64,000 bases of DNA from assembly GCA_902825775.1 (NCBI GenBank), contig CADECF010000003.1:281553-345552 (forward strand), written 5' to 3'. The notes below the pieces were generated by a model. It ran no database searches. It saw only the letters and a program-made list of their open reading frames with translations, and had not been told where the DNA came from. This document shows positions 5,535-64,000 of the stretch, one piece after another. This stretch comes from an uncultured Lysobacteraceae bacterium. Lineage in GTDB: Bacteria > Pseudomonadota > Gammaproteobacteria > Xanthomonadales > Xanthomonadaceae. The translations under genes were made by a program, and so were the position numbers. The stretch's first letter is position 1. Every line of letters starts with the position of its first letter.

Positions 5535-5540
5535 TATGCT
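5535..5540 (+). promoter_or_regulatory. -10-like TATGCT exactly 6 nt before start codon
   Basis: TATGCT is followed by 6 nt and then ATG at 5547. There is no Shine-Dalgarno sequence. A transcript from this element would begin at or next to the start codon. No good -35 was seen. Confidence 0.4.
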
Positions 5541-5546
5541 GGCGCA

Positions 5547-7766
5547 ATGAGCCCCCAAGCCCGCCCGCCCGCGTCGATGCCGCCGCCCGCCGAGTACGGC
5601 AAACACCTGCCGGTCACGCCGTTTCGCGGTTATCTGCTGGCGTTGGCGGTGCTGATCGGGTCGGTGGTGTCGGTGATCCTGTTCTGGCGCAATGCTTACG
5701 AACGCGAGATGCGGGCCGCCGAGGCGGATTTCGTCGCCGGCACGCAGCAGATCGCGGCGCTCATCCAGCAGCGGATGATCAATTACGAACTGGCGCTGGG
5801 CGGCGGCGCCGCGCTGTTCGGCAGCGTGCGGCCGACCCCTCAGCAATGGCAGTCCTTCGTCGAGGGGCTGGACACCCGCGAGCGGTTTCCCGGCCTGCTG
5901 GGCATGGGTTTCGCGCCTTATGTAACGCCGGCCGGGCTGCGCCAACTTCAGATCGAGAACTACGATGCCGGTTACGGCCTGTTCCGCGTTCGGCCGCCCG
6001 GCGTTCGCCCCTATTACGGACCGATCCTGTACCTGGCGCCGATGACGCTGGAAAACAGCAGCGTCGTCGGCTACGACATGTTCTCCCATCCCGTGCGGCA
6101 GGCGGCGATGATCGCCGCACGCGACAGCGGCAAGCCGCGCCTGTCCGGACCGGTCGACCTGCTGCAGGACAGAGTCGCCGGCGTGCGGCAAAGGGGGCTG
6201 CTGCTGTACGCGCCCATCTATCGCCTCGGCGACGTGCCCAACAACCTGCAGGCGCGGCGCCAATCGCTGCAAGGTTGGGTGTACATCCCGTTCCACATAC
6301 CTTCGTTCGTGCAGACGGCGCTACCGTTCCGCGATCGCTACGACGGCATCGAGCTGCAGATCTACGACGATACCGGTCCGCAAGCGGAATTATTGTATTC
6401 CGACGTGGCGTTCGGAAAATCGGAAGACGCCGCCTTCGCGCGCAGCGTGAAATCGCAGGCGTATGGACGGGATTGGCGCCTGGACTTCCGCTCCGGCCCT
6501 GCCGAAGCGATCAGTCCCGGCCTGGCCGGGTTGCGCACGATCCTGCTGATCGGTTTGCTGTCGTCATTGCTGCTGTTCTGGCTGGCCATGCTGCTGGCGC
6601 GGACCGAAAACCGCGCGCGGCAGATCGCCACGCAGCTGACCGAAGATTACCGGCGCAGCGAGCAACGGTTCCGGATGGCGATGGTGTATTCGGCGATCGG
6701 CAAGGCGCTGCTGGATCGCGAAGGCCGCGTGGTCGAGGCCAATCCTGCGCTGGGCGACATCGTCGGACGCGAGCCCGAACGGCTGACCGGTGCGGCATTC
6801 TCTTCCCTGTTCGACGACGCCACCGATCCGATCCGCACGACCGAGATGGAAACGGTCGCCGAGGGCGTGTACCGGACCACGCGCCATTTGCACCGCGACG
6901 GCGAGCTCCGCTATGTGCAGCTCACTTACGCGCCTATTCCAGGCAATGTGGGGCAAGACATCGCCCGCCTGGTGCAGGTCGAAGACGTCAGCGAACGGCT
7001 GCAAGCCGAGGCGCAGGTGCGTGCCCTGAACCGCACGCTGGAAAGCCGCGTCGCGCAACGCACGCGAGAGCTGACCGCCATCAACAACGAGCTGGAATCT
7101 TTCGCGTACAGCATCTCGCACGATCTGCGTACGCCGTTGCGCTCGATCGAAGGCTTCAGTCGATTGCTTTCCGAGCGCTACCAGCAGCAGCTCGACGAAG
7201 CCGGCCGCGACTATCTGACGCGCATCCGCAATGCCACCTCGCGGATGAGCGAGTTGATCGAGGCGTTGCTGAAGATGTCCCGCCTCAGCCGCGGCCAGCT
7301 CAACCCCTTGCCGCTGGACCTGAGCCAGCTAGCCGCCGAAGTCGTCGCCGAACTGCGCAGCGCCGAACCGGCGCGCGAAGTCGAAATAACCATCGCGCCG
7401 GACATGAAGGCCGTCGGCGATCCGCCGCTGGTGCGCAATTTGCTGACGAACCTGTTGGGCAATGCCTGGAAATTCACCCGTGGTTGCGCGCGGCCGCGGA
7501 TCGAATTCTTCCAGCAGACGCAGGGCGTTGCGGACGAACCGGTTTTCGTGGTGCGCGACAATGGCGCCGGTTTCGAAGCCGATTACGTCGGGAAATTGTT
7601 CCGCCCGTTCCAGCGGCTGCACAGCCAGGAGCAATTCAGCGGCCATGGCATCGGCTTGGCCTCGGTCAGGCGGATCGTCGAACGCCACGGCGGTACCATT
7701 CAAGCCGACGGCAAGCCGGACGAGGGCGCGACGTTCAAATTCACGCTGCCTGGCGAAAACGCCTAA
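5547..7766 (+). CDS. CHASE-PAS sensor histidine kinase
   Basis: The product is a 739-aa membrane kinase. The first transmembrane helix is at about residues 26-45 and the second at about 330-350. The periplasmic part between them has the CHASE pattern (ERFPGLLGMGFAPYV, APIYRLGDVPNN). A PAS domain follows (FRMAMVYSAIGKALLD), then a coiled coil, a HisKA domain with phospho-acceptor His in SISHDLRTPLRS, and an HATPase domain with NLLGNAWKFT, DNGAGF and GHGIGL. No receiver domain or adjacent response regulator is visible, so the partner must be elsewhere. CHASE ligands are small molecules. The start at 5547 is chosen because the longer frame from 5469 would run through the ssrA promoter area. Confidence 0.85.
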   Translation: MSPQARPPASMPPPAEYGKHLPVTPFRGYLLALAVLIGSVVSVILFWRNAYEREMRAAEADFVAGTQQIAALIQQRMINYELALGGGAALFGSVRPTPQQWQSFVEGLDTRERFPGLLGMGFAPYVTPAGLRQLQIENYDAGYGLFRVRPPGVRPYYGPILYLAPMTLENSSVVGYDMFSHPVRQAAMIAARDSGKPRLSGPVDLLQDRVAGVRQRGLLLYAPIYRLGDVPNNLQARRQSLQGWVYIPFHIPSFVQTALPFRDRYDGIELQIYDDTGPQAELLYSDVAFGKSEDAAFARSVKSQAYGRDWRLDFRSGPAEAISPGLAGLRTILLIGLLSSLLLFWLAMLLARTENRARQIATQLTEDYRRSEQRFRMAMVYSAIGKALLDREGRVVEANPALGDIVGREPERLTGAAFSSLFDDATDPIRTTEMETVAEGVYRTTRHLHRDGELRYVQLTYAPIPGNVGQDIARLVQVEDVSERLQAEAQVRALNRTLESRVAQRTRELTAINNELESFAYSISHDLRTPLRSIEGFSRLLSERYQQQLDEAGRDYLTRIRNATSRMSELIEALLKMSRLSRGQLNPLPLDLSQLAAEVVAELRSAEPAREVEITIAPDMKAVGDPPLVRNLLTNLLGNAWKFTRGCARPRIEFFQQTQGVADEPVFVVRDNGAGFEADYVGKLFRPFQRLHSQEQFSGHGIGLASVRRIVERHGGTIQADGKPDEGATFKFTLPGENA

Positions 7767-7800
7767 ATTTTGAAGCCTGCTTATTTTGCGGGAGCGGCTT

Positions 7801-7884
7801 TTCGTGGGAGCGGCTTCAGCCGCGAGCTCTTTCTCCAAGATCAGCGCTGGCCGAAGAGCTCGCGGCTGAAGCCGCTCCCACGAA
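7801..7884. repeat. REP-like inverted repeat, family A
   Basis: The left arm TTCGTGGGAGCGGCTTCAGC continues into CGCGAGCTCTT, and the right arm is its reverse complement, with 22 nt between them. Several near-identical copies occur in this window, always between genes. Confidence 0.85.
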
Positions 7885-7923
7885 AGTCACAAAAAGCCGT
7901 TCACGCAAAGGGAGAAGGGTGGC

Positions 7924-8430
7924 TCAGGCGTCTTTGTTGTGCCGGCGCATCAGGCGCTGCTTATCGCGGGCCCAGTCGCGTTCCTTGGCCGCTTCGCGCT
8001 TGTCGTGCGACTGCTTGCCCTTGGCCAGCGCCAACTCGGCTTTCACTTTGTTGCCTTTCCAGTACAGCGCGGTGGGCACCAGGGTGTAGCCGTCGCGTTG
8101 CACGCGGCCGATCAGTTCGTCGATCTCGCGCTTGTGCAGCAGCAGCTTGCGGGTGCGGTGGGCATCGGCCACGACATGGGTCGACGCCGAGATCAGCGGC
8201 GTCATCTGTGCGCCGATCAGGAACAGCTCGCCCTTGAGCACCATCGCGTAGGCCTCGACGATGTTCGCCCGGCCGGCGCGGATCGCCTTCAATTCCCAGC
8301 CCTGCAGGGCCAGGCCGGCTTCGAACCGCTGCTCCAGGTGGTAGTCGTGGCGCGCGCGCTTGTTGAGCGCGATCGTCCCGCCGCCGTTTGCCTTATCCTT
8401 GCCGGCCTTCTTGTTGGAAGTCTTGCTCAT
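7924..8430 (-). CDS. smpB: SsrA-binding protein SmpB
   Basis: This protein of about 168 aa has the SmpB core [62 protein letters not shown] and [16 protein letters not shown], and ends with the basic tail that enters the mRNA channel ([16 protein letters not shown]). It binds tmRNA and delivers it to stalled ribosomes. The MSKTSNKK start matches the family; an ATG 9 nt upstream (8439) is also possible. It lies 2.5 kb from ssrA on the same strand and is divergent from ratA. Confidence 0.95.
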
Positions 8431-8464
8431 CGTGTCCATTGTCCCCGATGGGGGCCTGGCGCGC

Positions 8465-8470
8465 TAATTT
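8465..8470 (+). promoter_or_regulatory. -10-like TAATTT exactly 6 nt before ratA
   Basis: TAATTT is followed by CCCGCC and then the ATG at 8477. No Shine-Dalgarno sequence is present. It is a candidate leaderless promoter; no -35 of note. Confidence 0.4.
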
Positions 8471-8476
8471 CCCGCC

Positions 8477-8902
8477 ATGCCCACCATCCGCCGCACCGCC
8501 CTGGTCGAACATTCCGCCGCCCGCATGTTCGCGCTAGTCAACGATATCGACGCCTATCCGCGCCGTTTCGACTGGTGCGAATCGGCGCAGGTGCAGGAGT
8601 CCGGCGAAGGCCGCGTCGTGGCTCGGCTGGATCTGAAGCTGGGCAGCTTCCGCACCTGGTTCGTCACCGAGAACACGCTGGCGCCACCGCACCATATCGA
8701 CATGAAGCTGCGCGATGGGCCGTTCAAGCAGCTCGGCGGGCGCTGGGAATTCCATGCGCTGGACGAATCGGCCTGTAAGGTGACGTTGACGCTGACTTTC
8801 GAGGCCGCTTCCAAGCTGTTGGCGCCCGCGGTGGCGCTGGGACTTCAGGGCTTGGCCGACCGTATGGTCGACGATTTCGTTCGCACCGCGGACCGCGCTT
8901 GA
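8477..8902 (+). CDS. ratA: RatA/PasT-type START-fold protein
   Basis: The 141-aa protein shows the COQ10/RatA pattern: RTALVEHSAARMFALVNDIDAYPRRFDWC near the N-terminus, DGPFKQLGGRWEF in the middle and a C-terminal amphipathic helix. E. coli RatA binds the 50S subunit and blocks subunit joining; the fold is that of a lipid-binding START domain, so the real role here may differ. The smpB/ratA/rnfH arrangement is the classical enterobacterial one. Confidence 0.85.
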   Translation: MPTIRRTALVEHSAARMFALVNDIDAYPRRFDWCESAQVQESGEGRVVARLDLKLGSFRTWFVTENTLAPPHHIDMKLRDGPFKQLGGRWEFHALDESACKVTLTLTFEAASKLLAPAVALGLQGLADRMVDDFVRTADRA

Positions 8903-8912
8903 GGCCGCAGGC

Positions 8913-9167: not shown

Positions 9168-9180
9168 GCGAGTGCCGCGA

Positions 9181-9585: not shown

Positions 9586-9692
9586 TCAGGGTTCGCGGCA
9601 GGGGCGGAATGCGGCGATAATACACCGAAGCCACGCGGCCCCGCCCGCGCCCGCCAATGCGTTCATCCTTGGTTATCGCGCTCGGAGTGCAG

Positions 9693-11877: not shown

Positions 11878-11930
11878 GGATGCAATTGTGCCGTGCGGCC
11901 CGCCAGCCTGCCATCGGCCGGTCGCGCCGC

Positions 11931-11959
11931 TTGCGACTGTCGTCATTCCTGCTTATACC
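11931..11959 (+). promoter_or_regulatory. promoter TTGCGA-17-TATACC, 6 nt before ATG
   Basis: TTGCGA (11931-11936), a 17-nt spacer and TATACC (11954-11959) are followed by 6 nt and the ATG of the ankyrin gene. The layout matches the one before hrcA almost base for base in its hexamers. A leaderless transcript is predicted. Confidence 0.55.
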
Positions 11960-11965
11960 GTCGAG

Positions 11966-12739
11966 ATGACCAGCGAATCGCCACCGACCGAGCACGCGCC
12001 GACCATCCTTGGCGACACCGACCCGATTGCCGTCCATGTCGTGGACGCGATTCGCAGCGGCGATAGGAAGGCGTTGCGGCGCTGGCTCGATGAGCATCCC
12101 GGCTGGGCCAACGTCCGCATCGCCGGCAGCGATGGCAACTGCGGAGTAGGGCAGCGTTCGCTCCTGCACATCGCGACGGATTGGCCCGGGCATTTTCCCG
12201 AGGTGGCAGGCACCATCGCCGATCTCGCCGCTGCGGGCGCGGACCCCAACGTCCGTTTTGCCGGCGGCTTCCATACCGAAACTCCGCTGCACTGGGCGGC
12301 CAGTTCGGACGATGTCGATGCCTTGGATGCCTTGCTCGATGCCGGTGCCGACATCGACGCGCCCGGCGCGGTGATCGGCGGCGGCACGCCCTTGGCCGAC
12401 GCGAGGGCGTTCAAGCAATGGCGGGCCGCGCAACGATTGGTAGCGCGCGGCGCCTACGTGAGCCTGGTCGATGCCGCGACGCTCGGCATGATCGATCGCG
12501 TGCGCGAATGCATGGCCGAAAAACCCGAGCCGGAAGCCGTGAACTGCGCATTTTGGGGCGCCTGCCACGGCGGCCGGCAGGACTGTGCGGAATATCTGTT
12601 GGAACGCGGCGCCGATTTGGATTGGATCGCGCTTTGGGAGCCGCTGACCCCGTTGGACGCGGCGGTGCGCAGCGACGCCGGCGAACTCGCCGCCTGGCTG
12701 CGCGGCCGCGGCGCGAAATCCGCCCGGGAACTCGGCTAG
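11966..12739 (+). CDS. ankyrin-repeat protein
   Basis: The 257-aa product starts at the ATG at 11966, which directly follows the predicted promoter; the frame is open further upstream but that part overlaps recN in antisense. Repeat units are RSLLHIATDWPGHFPEVAGTIADLAAAGADPN, ETPLHWAASSDDVDALDALLDAGADID and DCAEYLLERGADLDWI..LTPLDAA. There is no signal peptide, so a cytoplasmic protein-protein interaction role is likely, with unknown partner. The stop codon overlaps that of the convergent DUF2269-like gene by 4 bp. Confidence 0.8.
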   Translation: MTSESPPTEHAPTILGDTDPIAVHVVDAIRSGDRKALRRWLDEHPGWANVRIAGSDGNCGVGQRSLLHIATDWPGHFPEVAGTIADLAAAGADPNVRFAGGFHTETPLHWAASSDDVDALDALLDAGADIDAPGAVIGGGTPLADARAFKQWRAAQRLVARGAYVSLVDAATLGMIDRVRECMAEKPEPEAVNCAFWGACHGGRQDCAEYLLERGADLDWIALWEPLTPLDAAVRSDAGELAAWLRGRGAKSARELG

Positions 12740-13194
12740 GCGGGTATCTTCAGCACCATCAGTGCGAAGGCGATCCAGGCCGGAATCAGGCTGGCCGCAC
12801 CGAAGAGGTCCCAACGCCCGAGCATCGCCCGGCACGTGTCCCAATCGGCGTCCGGCTGCAGCGCGTAATCTCGGATGCGGCGTTGCAGCGGCGCAAGCCA
12901 CAGAAACATCAGCCCGGAAAACGCGAACAGCCCCAGACCCCACGCGATCCAGCCCACGCGCAGCACCGGCAAGCCGCCGAAGACCGCCGCCGAGAAGCCG
13001 CTGAGGATGATGAAAGCCACGGCGGGAATAGTGAACAGCCGGTCGCTGCCGATGATGCCGTCCATGGCATCGGCCAGCGCCGCGGGGCTGCGGCGGTGTT
13101 TGATCCGGTGGATCCAGAACAGGCCCGTGGTGATATTGCCCAGGAACAGCACCACCGCCGTCAGATGCAGCAATTTCAGCCATAAATAGATCAT
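12736..13194 (-). CDS. DUF2269-like integral membrane protein
   Basis: The 152-aa protein starts MIYLWLKLLHLTAVVLFLGN with GGACGGGG upstream, and has four hydrophobic helices. The pattern LKLLHLTAVVLFLGNITTGLFW and the WxxxGLGLF helix resemble DUF2269 and related putative inner-membrane proteins. Histidines in the first helix (LLH) could bind haem. Function unknown. Confidence 0.65.
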   Translation of the reverse strand: MIYLWLKLLHLTAVVLFLGNITTGLFWIHRIKHRRSPAALADAMDGIIGSDRLFTIPAVAFIILSGFSAAVFGGLPVLRVGWIAWGLGLFAFSGLMFLWLAPLQRRIRDYALQPDADWDTCRAMLGRWDLFGAASLIPAWIAFALMVLKIPA

Positions 13195-13315
13195 CGCGAT
13201 GCCCCGTCCTGCGTCCGATCGGCGCGCAGAAACGCTAGCACCGGCCGTTCCGCATTCCCGCTGACAGCTGTCAGACATCGCGGATGCGGTTTGCATATCG
13301 CCGGGCCGCTGCTGC

Positions 13316-13344
13316 TTGCGCGTATCGGCGCGCCGGCTTATACC
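13316..13344 (+). promoter_or_regulatory. promoter TTGCGC-17-TATACC, 6 nt before hrcA GTG
   Basis: TTGCGC (13316-13321), a 17-nt spacer, TATACC (13339-13344), then GCCAGG and GTG at 13351. It supports the GTG start and a leaderless hrcA message. Confidence 0.55.
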
Positions 13345-13350
13345 GCCAGG

Positions 13351-14406
13351 GTGGCCAGACCTTCCGACGACTCATCCCTCGACCCGCGCGCACGCCAGCT
13401 GCTGCGCACGCTGATCGCGCGCTACATCCGCGACGGCGAGCCGGTCGGCTCGCAGACCCTGGCGCGCCACGCCGGCCTGGACGTCAGCCCGGCCACGATC
13501 CGCAACATCCTGGCCGATCTGGAAGACACCGGCCTGCTCAGCGCACCGCACGCCTCGGCCGGGCGCATACCCACCGCGCAGGGCTACCGGGTGTTCGTCG
13601 ACAGCCTGCTGCAGGTCAAGCCGCTGGCCGAGGGCGAATTGTCGCGGCTGAGGAACGAATTGCCGGCGGGGGCGGGCACGCAGAACCTGCTCGGCAACGC
13701 GTCCGAACTGCTGTCGGCGATGACCCATTTCGTCGGTGTGGTCAGCGTGCCGCAGCGCGAACAGTTCGCGTTCAAGCACATCGACTTCGTGCCGCTCGAC
13801 GGCCTGCGCGTGCTGGCGATCCTCGTGTTCGCCGACAACGACGTGCAGAACCGCATCCTGCAGACGCGCCGGCTGTACGGCCCGACCGAGCTGGAACGCG
13901 TCGCCAATTACCTCAACACCCATTTCGCCGGGCGGCCGCTGGCCGACATCCGCGCCACGCTGCTGCACGAGATGCGCAGCGCCCGCAGCGAGATGGAGAA
14001 TCTACTGGCCCAGACGGTGGAATTGGCCGAGCAGGCCCTGGCGCCGGGCGCGGAGGACATGCTGCTGGCCGGGCAGACCCGCCTGATCGGCGTGCAGGAT
14101 CTGGCCGATCTGGACCGGCTGCGCGAACTGTTCGAAGCCTTCGCCCGCAAACGCGAGATCCTGCAACTGCTGGAGCGCACCGTGCACGCTCCCGGAGTGC
14201 GCATCTTCATCGGCGAAGAGACCGGCCTGGCGCCATTGGAAGGCGTGTCGCTGGTCACCGCGCCCTATGCCGCAGGCGGCCGGGTGCTGGGGGTATTGGG
14301 CGTGATCGGTCCGACCCGGATGGCCTACGACCGGATCATCCCGGTCGTGCAGGCCGCGGCCGATGCGCTGGGTTCCGCCTTGAATCCCGGGGCCAAGCCC
14401 TCATAG
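13351..14406 (+). CDS. hrcA: heat-inducible transcription repressor HrcA
   Basis: The 351-aa product contains LDPRARQLLRTLIARYIRDGEPVGSQTLA (winged helix), VSPATIRNILADLEDTGLL (recognition helix) and SAPHASAGRIPTAQGYRVFVD, all diagnostic of HrcA. The C-terminus carries the GAF-like dimer domain with FIGEETG and YAAGGRVLGVLGVIGPTRMAY. HrcA represses class I heat-shock genes at CIRCE sites; I saw no CIRCE element in this window. GTG at 13351 is preferred over the TTG at 13291 because family similarity starts near it. Confidence 0.93.
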   Translation: MARPSDDSSLDPRARQLLRTLIARYIRDGEPVGSQTLARHAGLDVSPATIRNILADLEDTGLLSAPHASAGRIPTAQGYRVFVDSLLQVKPLAEGELSRLRNELPAGAGTQNLLGNASELLSAMTHFVGVVSVPQREQFAFKHIDFVPLDGLRVLAILVFADNDVQNRILQTRRLYGPTELERVANYLNTHFAGRPLADIRATLLHEMRSARSEMENLLAQTVELAEQALAPGAEDMLLAGQTRLIGVQDLADLDRLRELFEAFARKREILQLLERTVHAPGVRIFIGEETGLAPLEGVSLVTAPYAAGGRVLGVLGVIGPTRMAYDRIIPVVQAAADALGSALNPGAKPS

Positions 14407-18991: not shown

Positions 18992-20296
18992 ATGGCGAAG
19001 GGCTGGTGGAAGAACCTTTATCTGCAGGTGTTGATCGCGATCGCGATCGGCGTGCTGCTGGGGCATTTCCGTCCCGAACTCGGCGCCCAGATGAAGCCGC
19101 TCGGCGACGGCTTCATCAAACTGGTCAAGATGATCATCGCCCCGGTGATCTTCCTCACCATCGTCGCCGGCATCGCAAAGATCGGCGATCTGCGCCATGT
19201 CGGCAAGATCGGGCTCAAGGCGCTGATCTATTTCGAAGTGCTGACCACGTTAGCGTTGGTGATCGGCCTGATCGTGGCCAATGCGCTCAAGCCCGGCGTC
19301 GGCATGAATATCGATCCGGCGCAGATCGATGCGTCCGGCATCGCCCAATACCAAAAAGCCGCGCACGAGCAAGGGACGGTGCCTTTCCTGCTCGACATCA
19401 TTCCGCACGATTTCCTCTCCGCGTTCACCGAAGGCAAGCTGCTGCAGGTGCTGCTGGTAGCCTTGCTCGCCGGCGTCGCGTTGACGCGGATGGGCGGGGC
19501 CGGGCGGCGCGTGCTCGATCTGTGCGAAGACTTGTCGCATGTGGTGTTCGGCATCGTCGGCATGATCATGCGGCTGGCGCCGATCGGCGCGTTCGGCGCG
19601 ATGGCGTTCACCATCGGCAAGTTCGGCCTGGGTTCGCTGGCCTCGCTCGGCTGGCTGCTGTTCGCGGTCTACATCACCTGTTTCGCATTCGTATTCGTCG
19701 TGCTCGGCGCGGTGGCGCGGTTCTCGGGCTTCTCGCTGTGGCAGTTCCTCAAATACATCCGCGGCGAACTGCTGCTGGTGCTCGGCACCTCGTCGTCGGA
19801 ATCGGCGCTGCCGCGTTTGCTCAATCGCCTGGAAGACGCAGGCTGCGATCGCGCGGTGGTCGGGTTGGTCGTGCCGACGGGCTATTCCTTCAATTTGGAC
19901 GGCACCTGCATCTATCTGACGATGGCCGCCGTGTTCATCGCCCAGGCGGTCGGCGTGGAGCTGAGCTTGGGCGAAGAGATCGCCCTGCTCGCGGTGCTGT
20001 TGCTGACCTCGAAAGGCGCGGCCGGCGTGACCGGTTCGGGCTTCGTGACATTGGCGGCCACGCTCGCCGCGCTCGGCGGCAAAGTGCCGGTGGAAGGCGT
20101 CGCGTTGATCCTGGGCGTGGACCGCTTCATGTCCGAGGCGCGGGCGATCACCAACTTCATCGGCAACGGCGTGGCCACGATGGTGATCGCCAAGTGGGAA
20201 GGCCTGCGCGACGACGGCAAGATGCGCGCGGCTTTCGCCACCGGGCCGTCGCCTGATGCCGCGCCCATCGCATCGGATCCCGACCAAGGCGATTGA
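18992..20296 (+). CDS. dctA: dicarboxylate:cation symporter (DctA/GltP family)
   Basis: The 434-aa inner-membrane protein starts [20 protein letters not shown], with GGGAGGG 6-8 nt upstream. It has the DAACS signatures [18 protein letters not shown] (hairpin 1, serine-rich), [18 protein letters not shown] and [26 protein letters not shown]. These are the substrate and Na+/H+ binding elements for C4-dicarboxylate or glutamate uptake. A monocistronic unit flanked by repeats. Confidence 0.92.
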
Positions 20297-20530: not shown

Positions 20531-20570
20531 TTAAAGCAGCGGAGCGAGCCCCGCTCTACAAGGCCGCGGC

Positions 20571-20599
20571 TTGTGGGAATGCCGTCTCGCGGCTAGCCT
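20571..20599 (+). promoter_or_regulatory. promoter TTGTGG-17-TAGCCT, 6 nt before dapB
   Basis: TTGTGG (20571-20576), a 17-nt spacer, TAGCCT (20594-20599), GAGCGC, then ATG. No Shine-Dalgarno sequence. Candidate leaderless promoter. Confidence 0.5.
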
Positions 20600-20605
20600 G
20601 AGCGC

Positions 20606-21313
20606 ATGACCGAACCCGTGAAATTATTGATCCACGGCGCCTCCGGCCGCATGGGCCAGGCCTTGCTGCGGCTGTGCGCGGAAGGCGGGAATTGCGCCGT
20701 CGTCGGCGCGGTATCGCGCAAGGTCGGACAGCGCGTGATCGATGGCGTGCCGCAATTCGCCAGTAGCGAGCTGTCGGGCGTGCCGGCCTTCGATGTGGCG
20801 ATCGATTTCAGCCTGGCCGAAGCCTTCGACCCGATCCTGGCGCTGTGCGCCGAGCGCGGTGCGGCGCTGGTGTCCGGCACGACCGGCTTGAGCGACGCCC
20901 AACGTGCCGCGGTCGCCGATGCCGCGAGCCGCATCCCGGTGCTGTGGGCGGCCAATTTCAGCCTGGGCGTGGCGGTATTGAGCGAACTGGTGGAGCGCGC
21001 CGCTGCGGCTCTGCCGGGCTGGGACTGCGACATTGTCGAAGCGCACCACGCCGGCAAGAAAGACGCGCCTTCGGGCACTGCGCTGGCGCTGGGCGAATCC
21101 GCGGGGCAGGGCGGCGCCCTGGCGCGTTATGCCAGCCTGCGCGCCGGCGACATCGTCGGCGAGCATCTGGTCCAGTTCGCCGGCATCGGCGAGCGGATCG
21201 AACTGATCCATCGCGCCACCAATCGCGACATCTTCGCCCGCGGCGCCTTGCATGCGGCTGAGCGTCTATCCGGGCGACCGCCCGGCACCTATCGCCTCCG
21301 CGACATGTTGTAG
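20606..21313 (+). CDS. dapB: 4-hydroxy-tetrahydrodipicolinate reductase
   Basis: The 235-aa product has the nucleotide-binding start LLIHGASGRMGQALL, SGTTGLSDAQ, ANFSLGVAVL, the catalytic EAHHAGKKDAPSGTAL and HRATNRDIFARGALHAAE. It makes tetrahydrodipicolinate with NAD(P)H in the lysine/diaminopimelate pathway. Its TAG stop lies inside the first GTAG of the following family C repeat. Confidence 0.96.
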   Translation: MTEPVKLLIHGASGRMGQALLRLCAEGGNCAVVGAVSRKVGQRVIDGVPQFASSELSGVPAFDVAIDFSLAEAFDPILALCAERGAALVSGTTGLSDAQRAAVADAASRIPVLWAANFSLGVAVLSELVERAAAALPGWDCDIVEAHHAGKKDAPSGTALALGESAGQGGALARYASLRAGDIVGEHLVQFAGIGERIELIHRATNRDIFARGALHAAERLSGRPPGTYRLRDML

Positions 21314-31731: not shown

Positions 31732-31737
31732 TAGAAT
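31732..31737 (+). promoter_or_regulatory. -10 TAGAAT exactly 6 nt before rpfD-like ATG
   Basis: TAGAAT, GCGCGG, ATG. There is no Shine-Dalgarno sequence. The identical TAGAAT-6 nt arrangement recurs at rarA. Confidence 0.45.
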
Positions 31738-31743
31738 GCGCGG

Positions 31744-32607
31744 ATGAACCATGCCTCCGGCTCCGCCCATCAGCGTTTCCTCCCGTGGCGCCGGACTTTC
31801 GAGGTCGGTTACTGGTTGGTGCTGACGCTGATCAACGCCGTCGCCAACAGCATTACCGTGCTGATGGATATCCGGCGCGAGGGCCTGGATTTCGCCACTT
31901 GGGAACCGGTGATCTGGGAAGCGTCCAGCGGCCTGATCTGGCTGGCGTTGGTGCTGCCGATCGTCTGGTTCACTAGACGCTATCCCTTGCACTGGGACAC
32001 CTGGCGCCGGCAATTGCCCTGGTATCTGCTGGCCAGCGTGGCGGTCTCGGCGGCCCACGTGGTGGGGATGGTGGGATTGCGGATCGTGGCCTACCGCATC
32101 CAAGGCAGCGAGTACGATTTCGGCGATTGGGGCCGTCAGTTCCTCTACGAATACCTGAAGGACGCGCGCACCTTCGCCGGCATGGTGCTGATGATCGAGA
32201 CGTATCGCTTCTTGCTGCGGCGCTGGCAGGGCGAGGCCAGCCTGCTCGCCGCACCCGATGAAGGCCCGCCGCTGGAATCCGTAGAGCGGCCCGAACGCTT
32301 CCTGGTGCGCAAACTGGGCCGGGAATTCCTCGTCGCGGCCAACGACATCGAATGGCTGCAGGCGGCCAGCAACTACGTCAACCTGCGCGTCCGCGGCCAC
32401 GATTATCCGTTGCGCAGCACGATCGCGGGCATCGAGGGCAAACTCGATCCGCGCCTATTCGCACGCATCCACCGCAGCTACATCGTCAACCTGGGCCAGG
32501 TCGCCTCGATCGAACCGCTGGACAGCGGCGACGCCCGCGTCCATCTGAAGGACGGCAGCCAGTTGCCGTGCAGCCGCAGGTACCGGGACGCCCTCAAGCC
32601 GCGATAA
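31744..32607 (+). CDS. rpfD: membrane-anchored LytTR-domain regulator (RpfD-like)
   Basis: The 287-aa protein has four predicted membrane helices in the first 160 residues (starting near 21, 58, 89 and 141). The C-terminal LytTR DNA-binding domain covers about residues 187-285: FLVAANDIEWLQAASNYVNLR, YPLRSTIAGIEGKL, FARIHRSYIVNLGQVASIEP and CSRRYRDALK. Its place before prfB and after recJ matches rpfD of Xanthomonas. It probably binds promoter direct repeats in response to a membrane signal. Confidence 0.8.
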   Translation: MNHASGSAHQRFLPWRRTFEVGYWLVLTLINAVANSITVLMDIRREGLDFATWEPVIWEASSGLIWLALVLPIVWFTRRYPLHWDTWRRQLPWYLLASVAVSAAHVVGMVGLRIVAYRIQGSEYDFGDWGRQFLYEYLKDARTFAGMVLMIETYRFLLRRWQGEASLLAAPDEGPPLESVERPERFLVRKLGREFLVAANDIEWLQAASNYVNLRVRGHDYPLRSTIAGIEGKLDPRLFARIHRSYIVNLGQVASIEPLDSGDARVHLKDGSQLPCSRRYRDALKPR

Positions 32608-43822: not shown

Positions 43823-46588
<2,766 letters not shown>

Positions 46589-49111: not shown

Positions 49112-49117
49112 TATAAT
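49112..49117 (+). promoter_or_regulatory. consensus -10 TATAAT 7 nt before clpS
   Basis: A perfect TATAAT is followed by CGAGACC and the ATG. The expected transcription start would fall within 1-2 nt of the ATG. No proper -35 is present at 16-18 nt. Confidence 0.5.
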
Positions 49118-49124
49118 CGAGACC

Positions 49125-49445
49125 ATGGCGAAGAAAACCGACCAAGACCGCGACCACGGCACCATCGTAGAAACGGCCAAACCCGAGACCGCAAGGCCAC
49201 CGCTGTATTCCGTCCTGTTGCTGAACGACGACTACACGCCGATGGATTTCGTGGTCGAGGTGCTGGTCAGCTTCTTCTCGCTGAACCTGGATAAGGCCAC
49301 CCAGATCATGCTGCACGTGCATACCCGCGGCCGCGGCGTTTGCGGCGTCTACACCCGGGAGGTGGCAGAGTCCAAGGTGGCCCAAGTTAACGAGTTCTCC
49401 CGTATGCATCAGCATCCCCTCCTGTGCACGATGGAAAAGGCGTAG
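49125..49445 (+). CDS. clpS: ClpS adaptor protein
   Basis: The 106-aa adaptor has an acidic-polar N-terminal tail, then [23 protein letters not shown] (Asn-Asp and Met of the N-degron pocket), [28 protein letters not shown] (ClpA-binding His) and [11 protein letters not shown]. It delivers N-end rule substrates to ClpAP. No Shine-Dalgarno sequence precedes it. clpA follows after 45 nt. Confidence 0.96.
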
Positions 49446-54628: not shown

Positions 54629-55372
54629 TTAAACGGCGCCGCAGGCCAGTTCGCTGGCGCGTAAACGTCCGAAGATCTCGGTCCAGGTGCCGGGCGGCTG
54701 CGGCATCGCCACCCATTCGGCGATGCGGGCGCTGAATTCCCGCCGCGGCCACGATTCGGCGCCCAGGCTGAGCAGGTGAGGACTCTCGACCTGAGCGTCG
54801 ATCAAAGGCCAACCCCAGCCATGCAGGCGGTGGGCCAGGGCGGCCAGCGCGGCTTTGGAGCCGCCGGATTGCGCGCTGAACATGCTCTCGCCGAAGAACA
54901 TGCGGCCCACGGCCACGCCGTAGATGCCGCCGACCAGGCGATCGCCATCGAATACTTCCACCGAATGCGCGTGGCCTTCGCGATGCAGCGCCAGATAAGC
55001 CGCCTGCATCGCATCGGTGATCCAGGTGCCGCGCTGGCCGGGGCGGGGCGTCTGTGCGCAAGCCGCGACCACGGCTCCGAAAGCGGTATCGGCGCGGATT
55101 TCCCAGGCCGACGATTTGATGGCACGGCGGAAACGCGACGACAACCGCACACCATCGCTGCGGAACACCGTACGCGGATCGGGGCTCCACCACAGAATCG
55201 GCTGGCCGCGCGAATACCAGGGGAAGATGCCGTGGCGGTAGGCGTTCAACAGCCGTTGGACGGACAGGTCGCCGCCCATGGCGAGCAGGCCGTCGGGTTC
55301 GCGCAGCGCGGCTTCGACCGGCGGGAACGGCGAGGCCGGGTCCGGGTCGAGTTGCGGAATGCGCAGAGTCAT
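54629..55372 (-). CDS. aat: leucyl/phenylalanyl-tRNA-protein transferase
   Basis: The 247-aa enzyme has FPPVEAALREPDGLLAMGGDLS, LLNAYRHGIFPWYSRGQPILWWSPDPR, GTWITDAMQAAYLALHREGHAHSVEV and GVAVGRMFFGESMFS, all diagnostic of Aat. It adds Leu or Phe to proteins with N-terminal Arg or Lys, making N-degrons for ClpS and ClpA, whose genes lie about 3-6 kb away. Confidence 0.97.
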   Translation of the reverse strand: MTLRIPQLDPDPASPFPPVEAALREPDGLLAMGGDLSVQRLLNAYRHGIFPWYSRGQPILWWSPDPRTVFRSDGVRLSSRFRRAIKSSAWEIRADTAFGAVVAACAQTPRPGQRGTWITDAMQAAYLALHREGHAHSVEVFDGDRLVGGIYGVAVGRMFFGESMFSAQSGGSKAALAALAHRLHGWGWPLIDAQVESPHLLSLGAESWPRREFSARIAEWVAMPQPPGTWTEIFGRLRASELACGAV

Positions 55373-55378
55373 GCGCGG

Positions 55379-55384
55379 ACGTTA
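55379..55384 (-). promoter_or_regulatory. -10-like TAACGT exactly 6 nt before aat
   Basis: On the minus strand TAACGT, CCGCGC, ATG. A weak TGCCCA sits 17 nt further upstream (55407-55402). No Shine-Dalgarno sequence. Confidence 0.35.
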
Positions 55385-58477: not shown

Positions 58478-59545
58478 ATGCGTATCGGCGTACCCAAAGA
58501 AACCAAGACCCTCGAAGGCCGCGTGGCGCTGGTGCCGGCGGCGGCGGGCGATTTGATCAAGCGCGGCCACGAGGTGTGGCTGGAGAAGGGCGCGGGCATC
58601 AAGTCCGGTTTCAAGGACGCCGACTACACGTCGCTGGGCGTCAAGATCGCCCCCGATGCGGCTGCGCTGTACGACAAGGGCGAGCTGATCGTGAAGGTCA
58701 AGGAGCCGATCGAAGGCGATCTGAAGCTGCTGCGCAAAGACCATCTGCTGTTCTGTTATCTGCACCTGGCACCGCTGCCCGATCTGACCAAGCGCCTGCT
58801 CGACATCGGCCTGACCGGCGTCGCTTTCGAAACCGTCGAACTCGATAACGGCGACCTGCCGCTGTTGGCGCCGATGTCGATCATCGCCGGCAAGATCGGC
58901 GTGCAGGTCGGCACGCATCTGCTGCACCAGCCCATGGGCGGGAAGGGCAAGCTGCTGGGCGGCCTGCCGTCGACCGAGCGCGGCAAAGTCGTGGTATTCG
59001 GCGCCGGCCAGGCCGGCGGCAATTCGGCGGCGCTGGCTGCGGCCGGCGGCGCGAACGTCGTGGTGTTCGAAAAGCGCCAAGACCGCATGGACGAAATGAT
59101 GCGGCTGGGCAACAACGTCACCGCGCTGTATCCGTACGAAGATCTGGTGGCCCGCGAAGTGGCCTCGGCCGACCTGGTGATAGGCGCGGTGCTGGTCACC
59201 GGTGCCGTGGCGCCGCACGTGGTCACCCGCGAGATGATGAAGAACATGGAAGACGGCAGCGTTATGGTCGACATCTCCATCGACCAGGGCGGCTGTTTCG
59301 AAAGCTCCCGCGCGACCACCTGGAAAGAACCGACCTATGTGGAAGAGGGCGTGACCCACTTCTGCGTGACCAACATGCCCGGCGCCGTGCCGCAGACCTC
59401 GTCGCAGGCGATCTGCGCGGCGATCCTGCCGTGGGTCAACAAGCTGGCCTCGGGCAGCTGGCGCGACAATGCGGCGCTGGTGAAGGGCATCAATGTGGAA
59501 GGCGGCAAGTTGGTGCATCCTGCGTTGCAGGGGATGAAGCTCTAA
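58478..59545 (+). CDS. ald: alanine dehydrogenase
   Basis: The 355-aa enzyme starts MRIGVPKETKTLEGRVALVPA with GGAG 9 nt upstream. Substrate and catalytic residues are in KVKEPIEGDLKLL and LLFCYLHLAP (catalytic His); the NAD fold is VVVFGAGQAGGNSAALAAAGGA; VDISIDQGGCFES and FCVTNMPGAVPQTSS follow. It interconverts alanine and pyruvate plus ammonia. The 280-bp gap to trxB must carry both promoters; nothing definite was seen there. Confidence 0.95.
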   Translation: MRIGVPKETKTLEGRVALVPAAAGDLIKRGHEVWLEKGAGIKSGFKDADYTSLGVKIAPDAAALYDKGELIVKVKEPIEGDLKLLRKDHLLFCYLHLAPLPDLTKRLLDIGLTGVAFETVELDNGDLPLLAPMSIIAGKIGVQVGTHLLHQPMGGKGKLLGGLPSTERGKVVVFGAGQAGGNSAALAAAGGANVVVFEKRQDRMDEMMRLGNNVTALYPYEDLVAREVASADLVIGAVLVTGAVAPHVVTREMMKNMEDGSVMVDISIDQGGCFESSRATTWKEPTYVEEGVTHFCVTNMPGAVPQTSSQAICAAILPWVNKLASGSWRDNAALVKGINVEGGKLVHPALQGMKL

Positions 59546-59575: not shown

Positions 59576-59657
59576 TGTCATCCCGAACGAAGTAGGGATC
59601 TGCTGGCCGAGCCACGCTATCGCCCGAAGTAGATCCCTCACTCCGTTCGGGATGACA
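59576..59657. repeat. family E inverted repeat between ald and ftsK
   Basis: TGTCATCCCGAACGAAGTAG plus GGATCTGC, and AGATCCCTCACTCCGTTC plus GGGATGACA. Confidence 0.85.
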
Positions 59658-59752
59658 GGCGGGGTTCGGGATGCAACGTAAATGCTAGTGTTAGATCAGT
59701 TTTGACAGTAAGATCAACCCATTAGGGGATTTTCTTCAGGTAATCACGCACG

Positions 59753-62116
59753 GTGGCACGCCCGCTCTCGGAACGTCAGAAGAAACAGCGCAATGCCGCT
59801 GCCGCCGCTCCGCCACCGGCGGCGCCGAATCCGCGTCGCCAGCGTTTGTTGCGCGATATCGCGCTGATCCTGATCGCGCCGGTGCTGCTGTACATGCTGG
59901 CCAGCCTCTTCACTTTTTCGCCCAACGATCCCAGCTGGTCGCATTCGGGCAGCGTGACCGCGCCGCTGCACAACATGGGCGGCCGCGTCGGTGCCTGGCT
60001 GGCCGACATGCTGATCTACATCTGCGGCTACGTGGCCTTCCTGCTGCCGATCATGCTCGGCATCGTGGCCTGGATCGCATTGTTCGGAATGGATACCGAC
60101 GGCGATGGCGATGCCGACCTCGGCCCCGCGTTGCGGCTGGTGGGCATCGTCGGCTTCCTGGTGTCGGCCGCGGGCCTGCTGTACCTGCGCATCGGCACGG
60201 TGGCCGATTTCACCGCAGGCGGGGGCGGCATCCTCGGGCAGCTGGTCGGCCGCTCGCTCGCACGTGGCTTCGGTGTGATGGGCAGCAACCTGTTCCTGAT
60301 CGCGCTGCTGCTGGTGTCGATCACGCTGGCGACCGGCCTGTCCTGGCTGGCGGTGATGGATCGCCTGGGCAAATGGGCGCTGGCGTTGCCGGGCCTGTTC
60401 CGCCGCGGCACGCAGCAGGCCGCCGAATGGCAGGAAGCGCGCGCTTTCCGCGAAGAACGCGAAGAATCCCGCAAGGTCGAAACCGAACTGCGCGCCAAGC
60501 GCGCGCCGGTGAAAATCGAACCGCCCGCGCCGGCTCAGGTGGAGAAGAGCGACCGCGCCAAACGCGAGCAGCAGATCCCGCTGTTCCACGTCGGCGACGG
60601 TTCCGGCATTCCGCCGCTGGCGCTGCTCGACGATCCCAAACCGCAGCAGAAAGGCTACAGCGAGGAAACGCTGGAGACGCTGTCGCGCCAGATCGAATTC
60701 AAGCTGCGCGATTTCCGCATCGAAGCTCAAGTCGTCGGTGCTTATCCGGGACCGGTGATCACGCGCTTCGAGCTGGAACCGGCGCCGGGCATCAAGGTCA
60801 GCCAGATCAGCTCGCTGGACAAGGACATCGCCCGCGGCCTGTCGGTGAAATCGGTACGCGTGGTCGACGTGATTCCCGGCAAATCGGTGGTCGGCCTGGA
60901 AACGCCGAATACGCATCGCGAGATGATCTATCTCAGCGAATTGCTGCGTTCGAAGGAATACGACAAATCCGGCAGCCACCTGACGTTGGCGCTGGGCAAG
61001 GACATCGCCGGCCGGCCGCTGGTCGCGGACCTGGCGCGCATGCCGCACCTGCTGGTGGCGGGTACCACCGGTTCGGGTAAATCCGTCGCGGTCAACGCGA
61101 TGGTGCTGAGCCTGCTGTACAAAGCCGGCCCGCAGGATCTGCGGATGCTGATGATCGACCCGAAGATGCTCGAATTGTCCGTGTATCAGGGCATTCCGCA
61201 TCTGCTGGCGCCGGTCGTCACCGACATGAAGGAAGCCGCCAACGGCCTGCGCTGGTGCGTGGCGGAAATGGAACGCCGCTACAAGCTGATGAGCATGGTC
61301 GGCGTGCGCAACCTGGCCGGTTTCAACAAAAAGGTGAAGGACGCGCAGGACGCGGGACAGCCGTTGATGGATCCGCTGTTTAAGCCGAACCCGGAACTGG
61401 GCGAAGCGCCGCGCCAGTTGGAAACGCTGCCGTTCATCGTCATCTTCATCGACGAATTCGCCGACATGATGATGATCGTCGGCAAGAAGGTCGAAGAGCT
61501 GATCGCACGGTTGGCGCAGAAGGCGCGCGCCGCCGGCATCCATCTAATTTTGGCGACGCAGCGGCCGTCGGTGGACGTCATCACCGGTTTGATCAAGGCG
61601 AATATTCCGACCCGCATCGCGTTCCAGGTGTCGAGCAAGATCGACTCGCGCACGATCCTGGATCAATCCGGCGCCGAGACTTTGCTCGGCCACGGCGACA
61701 TGCTTTACCTGCCGCCCGGCACGGCGATGCCCGAGCGCGTGCACGGCGCCTTCGTCAGCGACGAGGAAGTGCACCGGGTGGTCGAGCACCTCAAGCAGAG
61801 CAGCAGCGGCCCGGATTACATCGAAGGCGTGCTGGAAGAAGTGCAGTCGATGGGCGAGGGCCTGGTCGTCGGCGCCACCGGCCTGCCCGAAAGTACGGCA
61901 GGTGCAGGGGACGAGAGCGATCCGCTGTACGACGAAGCGGTGCGGATCGTCACCGAAACCCGCCGCGCCTCGATCTCCGGCGTCCAGCGCCGGCTGAAGA
62001 TCGGCTACAACCGCGCCGCCCGCCTGGTGGAGGCCATGGAGGCCGCCGGGGTAGTCACCCCGCCCGAACACAACGGCGACCGCAGCGTGCTGGCACCGCC
62101 GCCGCCGAAGGGCTAA
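59753..62116 (+). CDS. ftsK: DNA translocase FtsK
   Basis: The 787-aa protein begins at GTG 59753 and has four N-terminal membrane helices (about residues 35-210). A short charged linker leads to the RecA-like motor ([23 protein letters not shown] Walker [15 protein letters not shown] Walker B) and the gamma winged-helix ([27 protein letters not shown]) that reads KOPS. It couples chromosome dimer resolution to division. A TTGACA lies at 59702-59707. Confidence 0.96.
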
Positions 62117-62154
62117 GCTCGCGGCGGGGGAGTGTGCGGCACTGGGGAAAACTC

Positions 62155-62814
62155 ATGTACGGCAGTCGATGGCTACCAGCCGTTCTGGTCGCGCTCGCGA
62201 CCTCCGTTGTCATGCCCGATGCGCAGGCGCAGACCTGGCTGCGCTGGAGCAAGGCTACGCCGGTGAAGGATCCGGCCAAGGAATCCGCTGCCGCCAAACG
62301 CCAGGCGACGATCGTGCCCACCGTGGCTTCGATCGAAAGCCGACGTACGACGCCGATCGTCGCGCCTGCCGTCGAGCCGACACCCGAACCGAAGCAGGCG
62401 CCGGTGCGGCGTGGGCCGTCCATCACGATCATCGAAGAAAAGCGCGCCGAGGAAAAACGGGGCGAAGAAAAGCGGCCCGCTCCGCCAGTCGTGGCCAGCG
62501 TTACGCCGCCCGCACCGAGCCTGCCGCCGCCGGTTGCGCCGCCTACGCCGCCCAGTTCGCCGCCGGTGCCGGTATTCGAAGCGCAGCGCGAGCCGGCCGT
62601 CGCAACGCCCGCGGTGCTGGAGGACGTCGCCGTGCAATCCGCCCCGCTGGTGGCGGCATCTGAAACGGCCGCAGCGCCGCCCAAAACCTGCAGCGATTGC
62701 CCGAGCCGCGAAGAGCTGGGCGCCATTTCAGCCGCGCCTGCGGCCGGCGATGCCGCCCCCGAAGACCAGAAATTGCAATCCGAGCTAAAGCGCAGGCTGC
62801 TGCTGGGGCAGTGA
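62155..62814 (+). CDS. Pro/Ala-rich exported protein, unknown
   Basis: The 219-aa precursor starts at ATG 62155 with GGGGAAAA upstream. A signal peptide (LPAVLVALATSVVMPDAQAQ) is followed by low-complexity Pro, Ala and charged stretches (EEKRAEEKRGEEKRP, PSLPPPVAPPTPPSSPPVP) and a Cys pair (KTCSDCPS). It is likely periplasmic and partly disordered. It lies between ftsK and lolA. No family recognised. Confidence 0.65.
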   Translation: MYGSRWLPAVLVALATSVVMPDAQAQTWLRWSKATPVKDPAKESAAAKRQATIVPTVASIESRRTTPIVAPAVEPTPEPKQAPVRRGPSITIIEEKRAEEKRGEEKRPAPPVVASVTPPAPSLPPPVAPPTPPSSPPVPVFEAQREPAVATPAVLEDVAVQSAPLVAASETAAAPPKTCSDCPSREELGAISAAPAAGDAAPEDQKLQSELKRRLLLGQ

Positions 62815-62878
62815 GAAGGCGCTATTCAGCTGGACGCTTGCAGACTTCCGGCATCGTTTTTTCAGGAAGCGCTTACCC

Positions 62879-63502
62879 ATGAAACGCGTCCGGTTTTTCG
62901 CGGCCTTCGCCGCGGCCTTGTTTTCGCTCGCTGCGATGGCGGCTGCGCGCGACGATCTGACCGCCTTCACCCGCGGCCTGAAGGGCCTCGACGGCCAGTT
63001 CGTGCAGAAGGTGTACGACGCCAACGGCAAGCTGAAGGAATCCACCAGCGGTCGCGTGGCCATGTCGGCGCCGCGGCAATTCCGCTGGGAATACCTCAAG
63101 CCGCATCCGCAGCTGATCGTCGCCGACGGCAAAAAAGTCTGGGTCTACGATCCCGATCTGCAACAAGTCACGGTGCGTCCGCAGGGCGTCGAAGAGCAGA
63201 ACAGTCCGCTCGCCGCATTGATCGATACCAGCAAGCTCGACAAGGATTTCGCGATCAAGGAAGCCGGCAGCGAAGGCGGACTCGAATGGCTGCTGCTGAC
63301 GCCGCGCAACCGGGATCAGGCCAGTTTCGAATCGGCCAAGCTCGGCTTCGGGCCGGGCGGCCTCGCGCAGATGCAGGTGATCGACGCCGTCGGCCAACGC
63401 ACCGAAATCGCCTTCAGCGGCTGGAAGCGCAATCCTGGGTTCGCCAAGGATACGTTCGCCTATACGCCGCCGGCTGGCGTGGATGTGATCGGAGAGAACT
63501 GA
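62879..63502 (+). CDS. lolA: outer-membrane lipoprotein carrier protein LolA
   Basis: The 207-aa precursor has a signal peptide (FFAAFAAALFSLAAMAAA), then GLDGQFVQKVYDANGKLKESTSGRVAMSAPRQFRWEYLKPHPQLIVADGKKVWVYDPDLQQVTV, the LolA pattern. AGGAAG lies 9-14 nt before the ATG. It carries lipoproteins across the periplasm from LolCDE to LolB. The ftsK-lolA-rarA order is conserved in gammaproteobacteria. Confidence 0.96.
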   Translation: MKRVRFFAAFAAALFSLAAMAAARDDLTAFTRGLKGLDGQFVQKVYDANGKLKESTSGRVAMSAPRQFRWEYLKPHPQLIVADGKKVWVYDPDLQQVTVRPQGVEEQNSPLAALIDTSKLDKDFAIKEAGSEGGLEWLLLTPRNRDQASFESAKLGFGPGGLAQMQVIDAVGQRTEIAFSGWKRNPGFAKDTFAYTPPAGVDVIGEN

Positions 63503-63513
63503 GCCGTCTATTT

Positions 63514-63594
63514 TTGTGGGAGCGGCTTTAGCCGCGAGCTTTTTGCTGATCCCGTCATCTGCGAAGAGCTCGCGGCTAAAGCCGCTCCCACGAA
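63514..63594. repeat. family A inverted repeat between lolA and rarA
   Basis: TTGTGGGAGCGGCTTTAGCC and complement ending GCTCCCACGAA. It shares the TTTAGCC variant with the copy near 43.7 kb. Confidence 0.85.
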
Positions 63595-63613
63595 GAGCGA
63601 ACAGGGTCGGCGC

Positions 63614-63619
63614 TAGAAT
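63614..63619 (+). promoter_or_regulatory. -10 TAGAAT exactly 6 nt before rarA GTG
   Basis: TAGAAT, GCCCTC, GTG. There is no Shine-Dalgarno sequence. It matches the layout before the LytTR gene. Confidence 0.45.
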
Positions 63620-63625
63620 GCCCTC

Positions 63626-64000
63626 GTGGCCAAATCCAAACCCCGCCTGAGCGATTCCCCGGACCTGCTCAGCGTCGACCGCGACGCTCTGCGCCCGCTC
63701 GCCGAGCGCATGCGCCCGCAGACGCTGGACGAAATGGTCGGCCAACGACGTCTGCTCGCGCCGGGCTCGGCCTTGCGCAGTTCGATCGAATCGGGTCACG
63801 TCCACTCGATGGTGTTGTGGGGCCCGCCCGGCTGCGGCAAGACCACGCTCGCGCTGCTGCTGGCCAAATATTCCGACGCCGAATTCAAAGCGATTTCCGC
63901 CGTGCTGTCCGGCTTGCCGGAAGTGCGCCAAGTGCTGGCCGAGGCCGGGCATCGTTTCGACGAAGGCCGCCGCACGGTGTTGTTCGTCGACGAGGTGCAT
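63626..64000 (+). CDS. rarA: replication-associated recombination protein RarA (MgsA), N-terminal part
   Basis: GTG 63626 opens a frame that runs off the window; 125 codons are visible. The product reads PLAERMRPQTLDEMVGQRRLLAPGSALRSSI, Walker A LWGPPGCGKTTLALLLA, KAISAVLSGLPEVRQVL and Walker B TVLFVDEVH, as in RarA/WRNIP1 AAA+ ATPases that act at stalled replication forks. The out-of-frame ATG at 63618 is not used. Confidence 0.93.
   Translation, partial: MAKSKPRLSDSPDLLSVDRDALRPLAERMRPQTLDEMVGQRRLLAPGSALRSSIESGHVHSMVLWGPPGCGKTTLALLLAKYSDAEFKAISAVLSGLPEVRQVLAEAGHRFDEGRRTVLFVDEVH

Follow-up and report, generated by a model that had tools for sequence, protein, structure and literature searches.

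The 64,000-nucleotide stretch of DNA analysed here (hereafter the window; contig positions 281553–345552 of an uncultured Lysobacteraceae genome of 3.76 Mb in 26 contigs, 64.6% G+C) contains a group of genes that carry a −10-like hexamer directly upstream of the start codon, at a spacing of 6 or 7 nt. Such a −10 element placed against the start codon very probably marks leaderless mRNAs, which would coexist in this genome with initiation by the Shine-Dalgarno (SD) route. The evidence comprises the spacing across the genome, a depletion of SD sequences, a gene position capable of holding a promoter, and conservation among orthologues; from these sequence features we infer both the transcription start and the route of translation. 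A second way of starting translation is probably real and partly conserved, with the mRNA starting at the first nucleotide of the coding sequence, and the genes concerned would make up roughly 4–5% of those in this genome, or about one gene in 20.

A −10 element at a fixed distance from start codons

An earlier reading of the window, made from its letters alone (the sequence-only reading), had listed nine genes with such hexamers and no SD sequence, and had interpreted them as leaderless. All nine pairs of hexamer and start codon are present, in front of open frames that begin with ATG or GTG; the spacing is 7 nt for clpS and 6 nt for the other eight (Table 1), and none of the nine (0/9) has an SD 4-mer (scored as GGAG, GAGG, AGGA, AAGG or GGGA) at −18 to −4. 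The observation of hexamers at a fixed spacing is confirmed, and the suggestion that these genes would be leaderless is supported.

Gene starts were called by codon usage and start-codon type alone, with no promoter or SD term, in a sample consisting of the window and 780 kb of the same genome (844 kb, 741 genes, 22% of the genome). In 31/741 genes TANNNT lies precisely 6 nt upstream of the start, and in seven at 7 nt, compared with a background of 1.94 genes per offset (0.26% per gene and offset; the mean over offsets 0–20 without 5–8); the counts at 5 and 8 nt are two each, and those at the remaining offsets from 0 to 20 are 1–3 each. The excess at 6 and 7 nt together amounts to 4.6% of the genes in the sample. 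The sequence-only reading had expected such hexamers to be rare by chance at any one fixed position, as proved to be the case (31 at offset 6 against 1.94; Poisson P approximately 1.6e-26), and had set genome-wide enrichment at this offset as a check beforehand; the peak is sharp and falls at the predicted offset in the 22% of the genome covered. Across 300 mononucleotide shuffles, the count at offset 6 averaged 4.5 and never exceeded 11. Among the 64 hexamer classes with positions 1, 2 and 6 fixed, TANNNT is the strongest at offset 6, and the next-strongest two, which are GG-type, probably reflect SD sequences. In the window alone, TANNNT stands at 6 or 7 nt in 6 of the 55 called genes, compared with approximately 0.3 predicted by the background.

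A possible explanation of a different kind is that TANNNT at offset 6 is a translation or composition signal, i.e. an AT-rich, unpaired initiation region, with the real promoter further upstream. AT-rich signals near the starts of SD-less genes in other groups are described in the available text of Zheng et al. 2011 (PMC3160421). The signal observed here, however, is a specific TANNNT at one exact offset, and in the 741 genes the permuted AT-rich hexamers (ATNNNT, TTNNNA) do not peak at 6 nt; TANNNT at 6–7 nt is also less frequent in operon-internal genes. Moreover, clpS orthologues carry TATAAT, which is the σ70 −10 consensus, or close forms of it. We consider a signal of composition very unlikely to account for the peak.

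Beside the peak at 6–7 nt there is a second, broad −10 peak at 27–32 nt upstream of starts (8–14 genes at each offset), which implies leaders of approximately 20–26 nt and therefore ordinary leadered genes. The presence of both peaks bears out the proposal that two initiation modes coexist. The SD sites assigned to other genes of the window are found for fur, dnaK, clpA and the gene at 46588 (acnA in the sequence-only reading); the gene at 58478, taken in place of dctA, has GGAG.

Properties and content of the class

The 38 genes with TANNNT at 6 or 7 nt (hereafter the class) are strongly depleted in SD sequences, with an SD 4-mer in 2/38 compared with 300/703 of the other genes (Fisher 6e-7). 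All 38 start with ATG (598/703 of the others), a share that leans high because the caller favours ATG, with GTG cases such as hrcA going uncounted. Members of the class account for 35/566 promoter-capable genes compared with 3/172 operon-internal genes, as judged from neighbour strand and distance alone, and 71% of the class have C at the sixth position following the −10.

Pfam was run on 30 of the 32 class genes that lie beyond the window (one crossing a stretch border and L031:8687-8935 were left out), and 27/30 gave a match at E 1e-6. The class includes RlmJ, a SPOUT methyltransferase (RlmH type), a SpoU methylase, DarP and an RNB ribonuclease (RNase R type), as well as an RNase_T exonuclease, Ada/AlkA and DsbB. 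Several of the offset-6/7 genes in the own-genome sample (loci L001–L039) are rRNA/tRNA methylase, ribosome-maturation or RNase genes.

Conservation of the spacing in orthologues

Orthologue starts were picked from the alignments, ATG being slightly favoured and the motif not being used; rows failing identity, coverage or start filters were removed ahead of counting, and the counts leave out the window's own copy unless stated. The hrcA-region loci are the best 80 of 372 HrcA relatives with ≤10 kb of flank each, the window's own genome not being included; in the named collection, the best relatives, 84–85% identical in HrcA, are from Lysobacter, Luteimonas or an unclassified proteobacterial bin. 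The sets for clpS, aat, rarA and the LytTR gene comprise 30 loci each, the best from a search of 60 genomes, and all contain the window copy. Pooling the 80 hrcA loci gives 18 at offset 6 and 10 at offset 7 compared with 1.0, counts which are not independent because the loci represent one syntenic region.

Family searches support the names CHASE/PAS histidine kinase, RatA-like, ankyrin, HrcA, DapB, LytTR-domain, ClpS and Aat, the RatA assignment having an NCBIfam score under the curated cut-off. The 124 residues of rarA that lie inside the window match AAA/RuvB-like families, and the name fits the gene order clpS-clpA-infA-aat-rarA of Escherichia coli K-12.

Table 1. Elements next to start codons in the window (window coordinates).
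Gene	Element	Element position	Strand	Gene position	Remark
CHASE/PAS histidine kinase	TATGCT-N6-ATG	5535..5549	+	5547-7766	Pfam
ratA	TAATTT-N6-ATG	8465..8479	+	8477-8902	weakest of the nine
recN	CACAAT 7 nt before ATG	11885..11890	-	11877-10195	not listed in the sequence-only reading
Ankyrin-repeat gene	CTTGC-N19-TATACC-N6-ATG	11930..11968	+	11966-12739	inside insertion
hrcA	CTTGC-N19-TATACC-N6-GTG	13315..13353	+	13351-14406	
dapB	CTTGT...TAGCCT-N6-ATG	20570..20608	+	20606-21313	
LytTR gene	TAGAAT-N6-ATG	31732..31746	+	31744-32607	rpfD-like in the sequence-only reading; Pfam LytTR domain
clpS	TATAAT-N7-ATG	49112..49127	+	49125-49445	
aat	TAACGT-N6-ATG	55370..55384	-	55372-54629	
rarA	TAGAAT-N6-GTG	63614..63628	+	63626 to beyond window	

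TANNNT stands at 6 or 7 nt in all 29 other orthologues of clpS (29/29), in 43/57 of dapB (36 at 6 nt, 7 at 7 nt), in 19/29 others of the LytTR gene, and in 15/27 of the kinase (13 at 6 nt, 2 at 7 nt). With hrcA, which keeps the same spacing with a different hexamer, these are the genes for which the comparison with relatives proposed in the sequence-only reading bears out the spacing in more than half of the orthologues; for ratA it does not. In the same loci, TANNNT is found at 6 or 7 nt in none of the smpB, fur, grpE, dnaK, dnaJ and carA sequences, nor in those of two further neighbour genes, and the gene at 18992 has TANNNT at 7 nt in its one orthologue (n=1).

On the pattern in its orthologues recN, which the sequence-only reading had not listed, belongs to the predicted leaderless set too: TANNNT is present at 6–7 nt in 27/78, or in 46/78 when offset 8 is counted, so that the leader would be 0–2 nt. 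The most informative of the genes is rarA. Among its 30 orthologues, here including the window's own (L180–L209), 15 have a near element (TANNNT at 5–8 nt), 12 a far one, none both, and three neither. The far element, TTG(C/G)TATC(G/T)T, is extended −10-like, lies 26–40 nt upstream and is common to the 12/30 leadered rows; as near and far elements never occur together, the two promoters look like alternatives. TANNNT at offset 6 is found in 10/29 other rarA orthologues, of which five start with GTG.

Gene by gene, these patterns give high confidence in leaderless use for clpS, dapB, the LytTR gene and hrcA, moderate to high confidence for the kinase, recN, rarA and the ankyrin gene, moderate confidence for aat, and low confidence for ratA.

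A second promoter type upstream of hrcA and the ankyrin gene

The treatment of the nine listed genes as one class holds for the seven with TANNNT, although ratA among them is not conserved, and does not extend to the ankyrin gene and hrcA (both TATACC), which have another promoter type. The exact pattern CTTGC-N19-TATAYC-N6-RTG has two matches in the whole 3.76 Mb genome, one preceding hrcA and the other the ankyrin gene. TANNNT itself is at offset 6 in 1/80 hrcA orthologues, and the pattern TTG(C/A)-N16-22-TAT(A/C/T)NN ends 3–10 nt before the hrcA start in 63/80, at 6 nt in 51 and at 7 nt in nine (60/80 at 6–7 nt), with a spacer of 19 after TTGC in 57. The −10 forms TATCTA (25), TATACC (18) and TATATC (15) account for 58/63 of the matching orthologues. 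At 6–7 nt the pattern has no occurrence in the grpE, dnaK, dnaJ, fur, smpB, carA, recN and dapB sets.

When any offset is allowed, the hrcA pattern is also found 25 nt before the start in 4/80 rows, which we take to be the Xanthomonas/Stenotrophomonas loci L093, L095, L102 and L107, where TATCTA lies approximately 25 nt before the hrcA ATG; hrcA in those loci looks leadered. Seven other loci (L040, L043, L050, L084, L105, L111 and L112; mostly Luteimonas) have TCTAATC or TTTAATC near the hrcA start.

The σ70 −10 consensus ends in T (TANNNT), and this final T is missing from TATCTA, TATACC and TATATC, the −10 forms of hrcA and the ankyrin gene. The consensus of RpoH (σ32) is CTTGAA at −35 and CCnCATnT at −10, a form to which the hrcA element, CTTGC-N19-TATMYM, does not conform. 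Transcription of hrcA and the ankyrin gene by RpoH, the heat-shock sigma factor, and not by σ70, is a serious though slightly disfavoured possibility: HrcA is itself a heat-shock regulator, and the element combines CTTG at −35 with a TATMYM −10 that is without the final T of σ70 sites. However, a strict pattern for the RpoH form, (C)TTGAA-N-CCn(n)ATnT, matches 11/19 clpB upstream regions of this family (not that of the window's genome), and the hrcA element is unlike this form in having CTTGC, in being one base longer and in lacking CCnCAT; an hrcA-type element precedes groES in 1/26. Comparison with the clpB and groES upstream regions did not confirm σ32 for hrcA. As a separate observation on groES, CIRCE-like repeats GGCA(C/G)TC...GA(C/G)TGCTAA lie upstream of it in 17/26 readable loci (L334–L362), including that of the window's own genome (L357).

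In 76/79 loci, recN and hrcA are divergent neighbours 56–313 bp apart. The gap in the window is 1474 bp and holds the ankyrin gene and an open reading frame on the reverse strand (13194-12736), an insertion of approximately 1.35 kb splitting the recN-hrcA intergenic region (window 11878-13350); in the same-genus genome G003 the gap is 119 bp, with no insert. A relative of the reverse open reading frame is present at the same place in three loci (L063, L100 and L109), and a search of the 80 loci at E 1e-3 gave no ankyrin relative.

Distribution among other genomes

By the same caller method, G016 (same family) has 10 genes with TANNNT at offset 6 compared with a background of 0.76, G025 (same order) has 7 compared with 0.47, and G039 (same order) has 7 at offset 6 and 7 at offset 7 compared with 0.76. 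Gene expression in the Gammaproteobacteria is mostly viewed through E. coli, and in 300 kb of E. coli K-12 (248 genes) there is no such peak, with none at 6 nt and two at 7 nt compared with 3.9.

In whole genomes we counted TAKAAT-N6-ATG against a control with the same hexamer at N10 spacing. Summed over 24 genomes of the family, the counts are 358 for N6 and 49 for N10; N6 is the higher in 24/24, and the excess is at p<0.01 in 18/24. The corresponding sums are 312 and 205 for 16 other genomes of the order (4/16 at p<0.01), or 161 and 73 when G030, which has a very high background, is removed, and 4366 and 4198 for 141 genomes of the class Gammaproteobacteria outside the family (5/141 at p<0.01). 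For 43 low-background genomes among these 141 the sums are 382 and 198, a ratio that is inflated because the selection rests on N10 itself. With 18/24 in the family and 5/141 in the rest of the class, the strong excess characterizes the family and parts of its order.

Start assignment, chance and other points against leaderless initiation

Several observations weigh against the assignment of these genes to leaderless initiation. Some concern the class as a whole: the caller and the choice of orthologue starts both lean towards ATG, and there is no −35 enrichment in the class (TTG[AC] in 1/38, control 1; CTTG in 3/38, control 1), so that most members are, by sequence alone, bare −10 matches; leadered −10 sites are likewise poor in −35 elements (TTG[AC] in 5/71, control 2). 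Others concern single genes, in that TANNNT at 6 or 7 nt is found in 0/70 family orthologues of ratA, in just 9/29 other orthologues of aat and in just 11/29 others of rarA, and that the offset in recN is not fixed, ranging from 6 to 8 nt. Among genomes, G158, from another order of the class, has a weak peak (9 compared with 3.4), and the N6 excess falls short of p<0.01 in 6/24 genomes of the family.

The choice of start bears on whether the start codons are mis-assigned, the true starts lying downstream and the −10 serving an ordinary short leader. Start choice is uncertain in a GC-rich genome, and residue 1 of the query aligns unshifted with the chosen start in just 16/30 aat, 10/30 rarA and 10/30 LytTR rows. 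Against this, the alignment runs unshifted from residue 1 in 26/30 clpS and 78/78 recN rows, the class lacks SD sequences at the called start (2/38), and the caller, although blind to the −10, produces a peak spanning one or two bases (31 at 6 nt and 7 at 7 nt, compared with two each at 5 and 8 nt). Systematic mis-assignment is in our view highly improbable.

It is rather unlikely, though less so than mis-assignment, that some of the nine are chance cases, namely ratA and possibly aat, in which TANNNT would not be a promoter or would be private to the genus. The low orthologue counts of both genes point in that direction. The ratA element is identical in G003, although the whole surroundings are identical there too, and even one chance case among the 55 genes of the window is unlikely given a background of 0.26% per gene and offset.

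Proposed mechanism

A leaderless origin of these mRNAs remains the explanation we favour. With a −10 element six or seven nt upstream of the start codon, transcription would begin at the codon's first base or at one adjoining it; beginning at the first base itself would give an mRNA without a leader, with AUG or GUG at its 5′ end. Ribosomes would then bind such an mRNA straight at its terminal start codon, in parallel with the SD route that serves genes with promoters further upstream. Most members would be transcribed from a housekeeping-like −10 with no detectable −35, and hrcA and the ankyrin gene from the other promoter type with the same spacing.

A more far-reaching proposal, which we regard as unlikely at present, is that the leaderless state is selected and gene-specific, being kept on stress, proteolysis and ribosome-upkeep genes, with rarA and hrcA switching by a movement of the promoter of approximately 20–25 nt. 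If this were true, the proteins of the clpS, hrcA, recN, RlmJ, RlmH, DarP and RNase R types would be made when SD-dependent initiation is limited.

The genes clpS, dapB and hrcA keep the predicted leaderless promoter layout across many family records, and in rarA and hrcA near and far promoters look like alternatives; these features may make the family a convenient Gram-negative model in which to study what leads a gene to retain or lose its leader. In annotation, where a start codon has no SD sequence, a −10 six nt ahead of it can assist in locating it.

Comparison with known systems

The arrangement is like that of the leaderless transcriptome of Mycobacterium tuberculosis, in which, reportedly, a −10 likewise adjoins the start codon of SD-less genes; the share of genes is said to be larger there. 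A review (PMC9031893) deals with leaderless translation. Among bacteria more broadly, a table in Zheng et al. 2011 (PMC3160421) gives an average of 19.2% leaderless genes for the Actinobacteria. The leaderless transcriptome of M. tuberculosis is the topic of Cortes et al. 2013 (PMC3898074).

The closest precedent is the group of TA-led genes in the same study (Zheng et al. 2011, BMC Genomics 12:361; PMC3160421), which, in the available text, are defined by TANNNT approximately 12 bp upstream of the start and carry the same inference. According to that text, 15/239 gammaproteobacterial genomes have such genes, with a share of 3.0–5.7% (4.6% here), and the Xanthomonadales are one of the two gammaproteobacterial groups that mostly hold them; the class is therefore already known by prediction. 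Seven of the nine listed window genes have TANNNT at this position, the ankyrin gene and hrcA being the two without it; an SD sequence is found in none of the nine and in 2/38 of the class; and the tendency of TA-led genes to stand first in the transcription unit is matched by the 35/566 compared with 3/172.

A limited, title-level literature search gave, among the matches listed, no report of leaderless use of these genes in Xanthomonadaceae. Within the scope of that search, the conservation at the level of single genes, the alternation in rarA and hrcA, and the hrcA promoter type appear to be new. Zheng et al. 2011, as far as the available text extends, gives fractions of genomes, whereas here single genes are traced through their orthologues, revealing a second promoter type with the same spacing (hrcA) and an alternation between near and far elements (rarA and hrcA).

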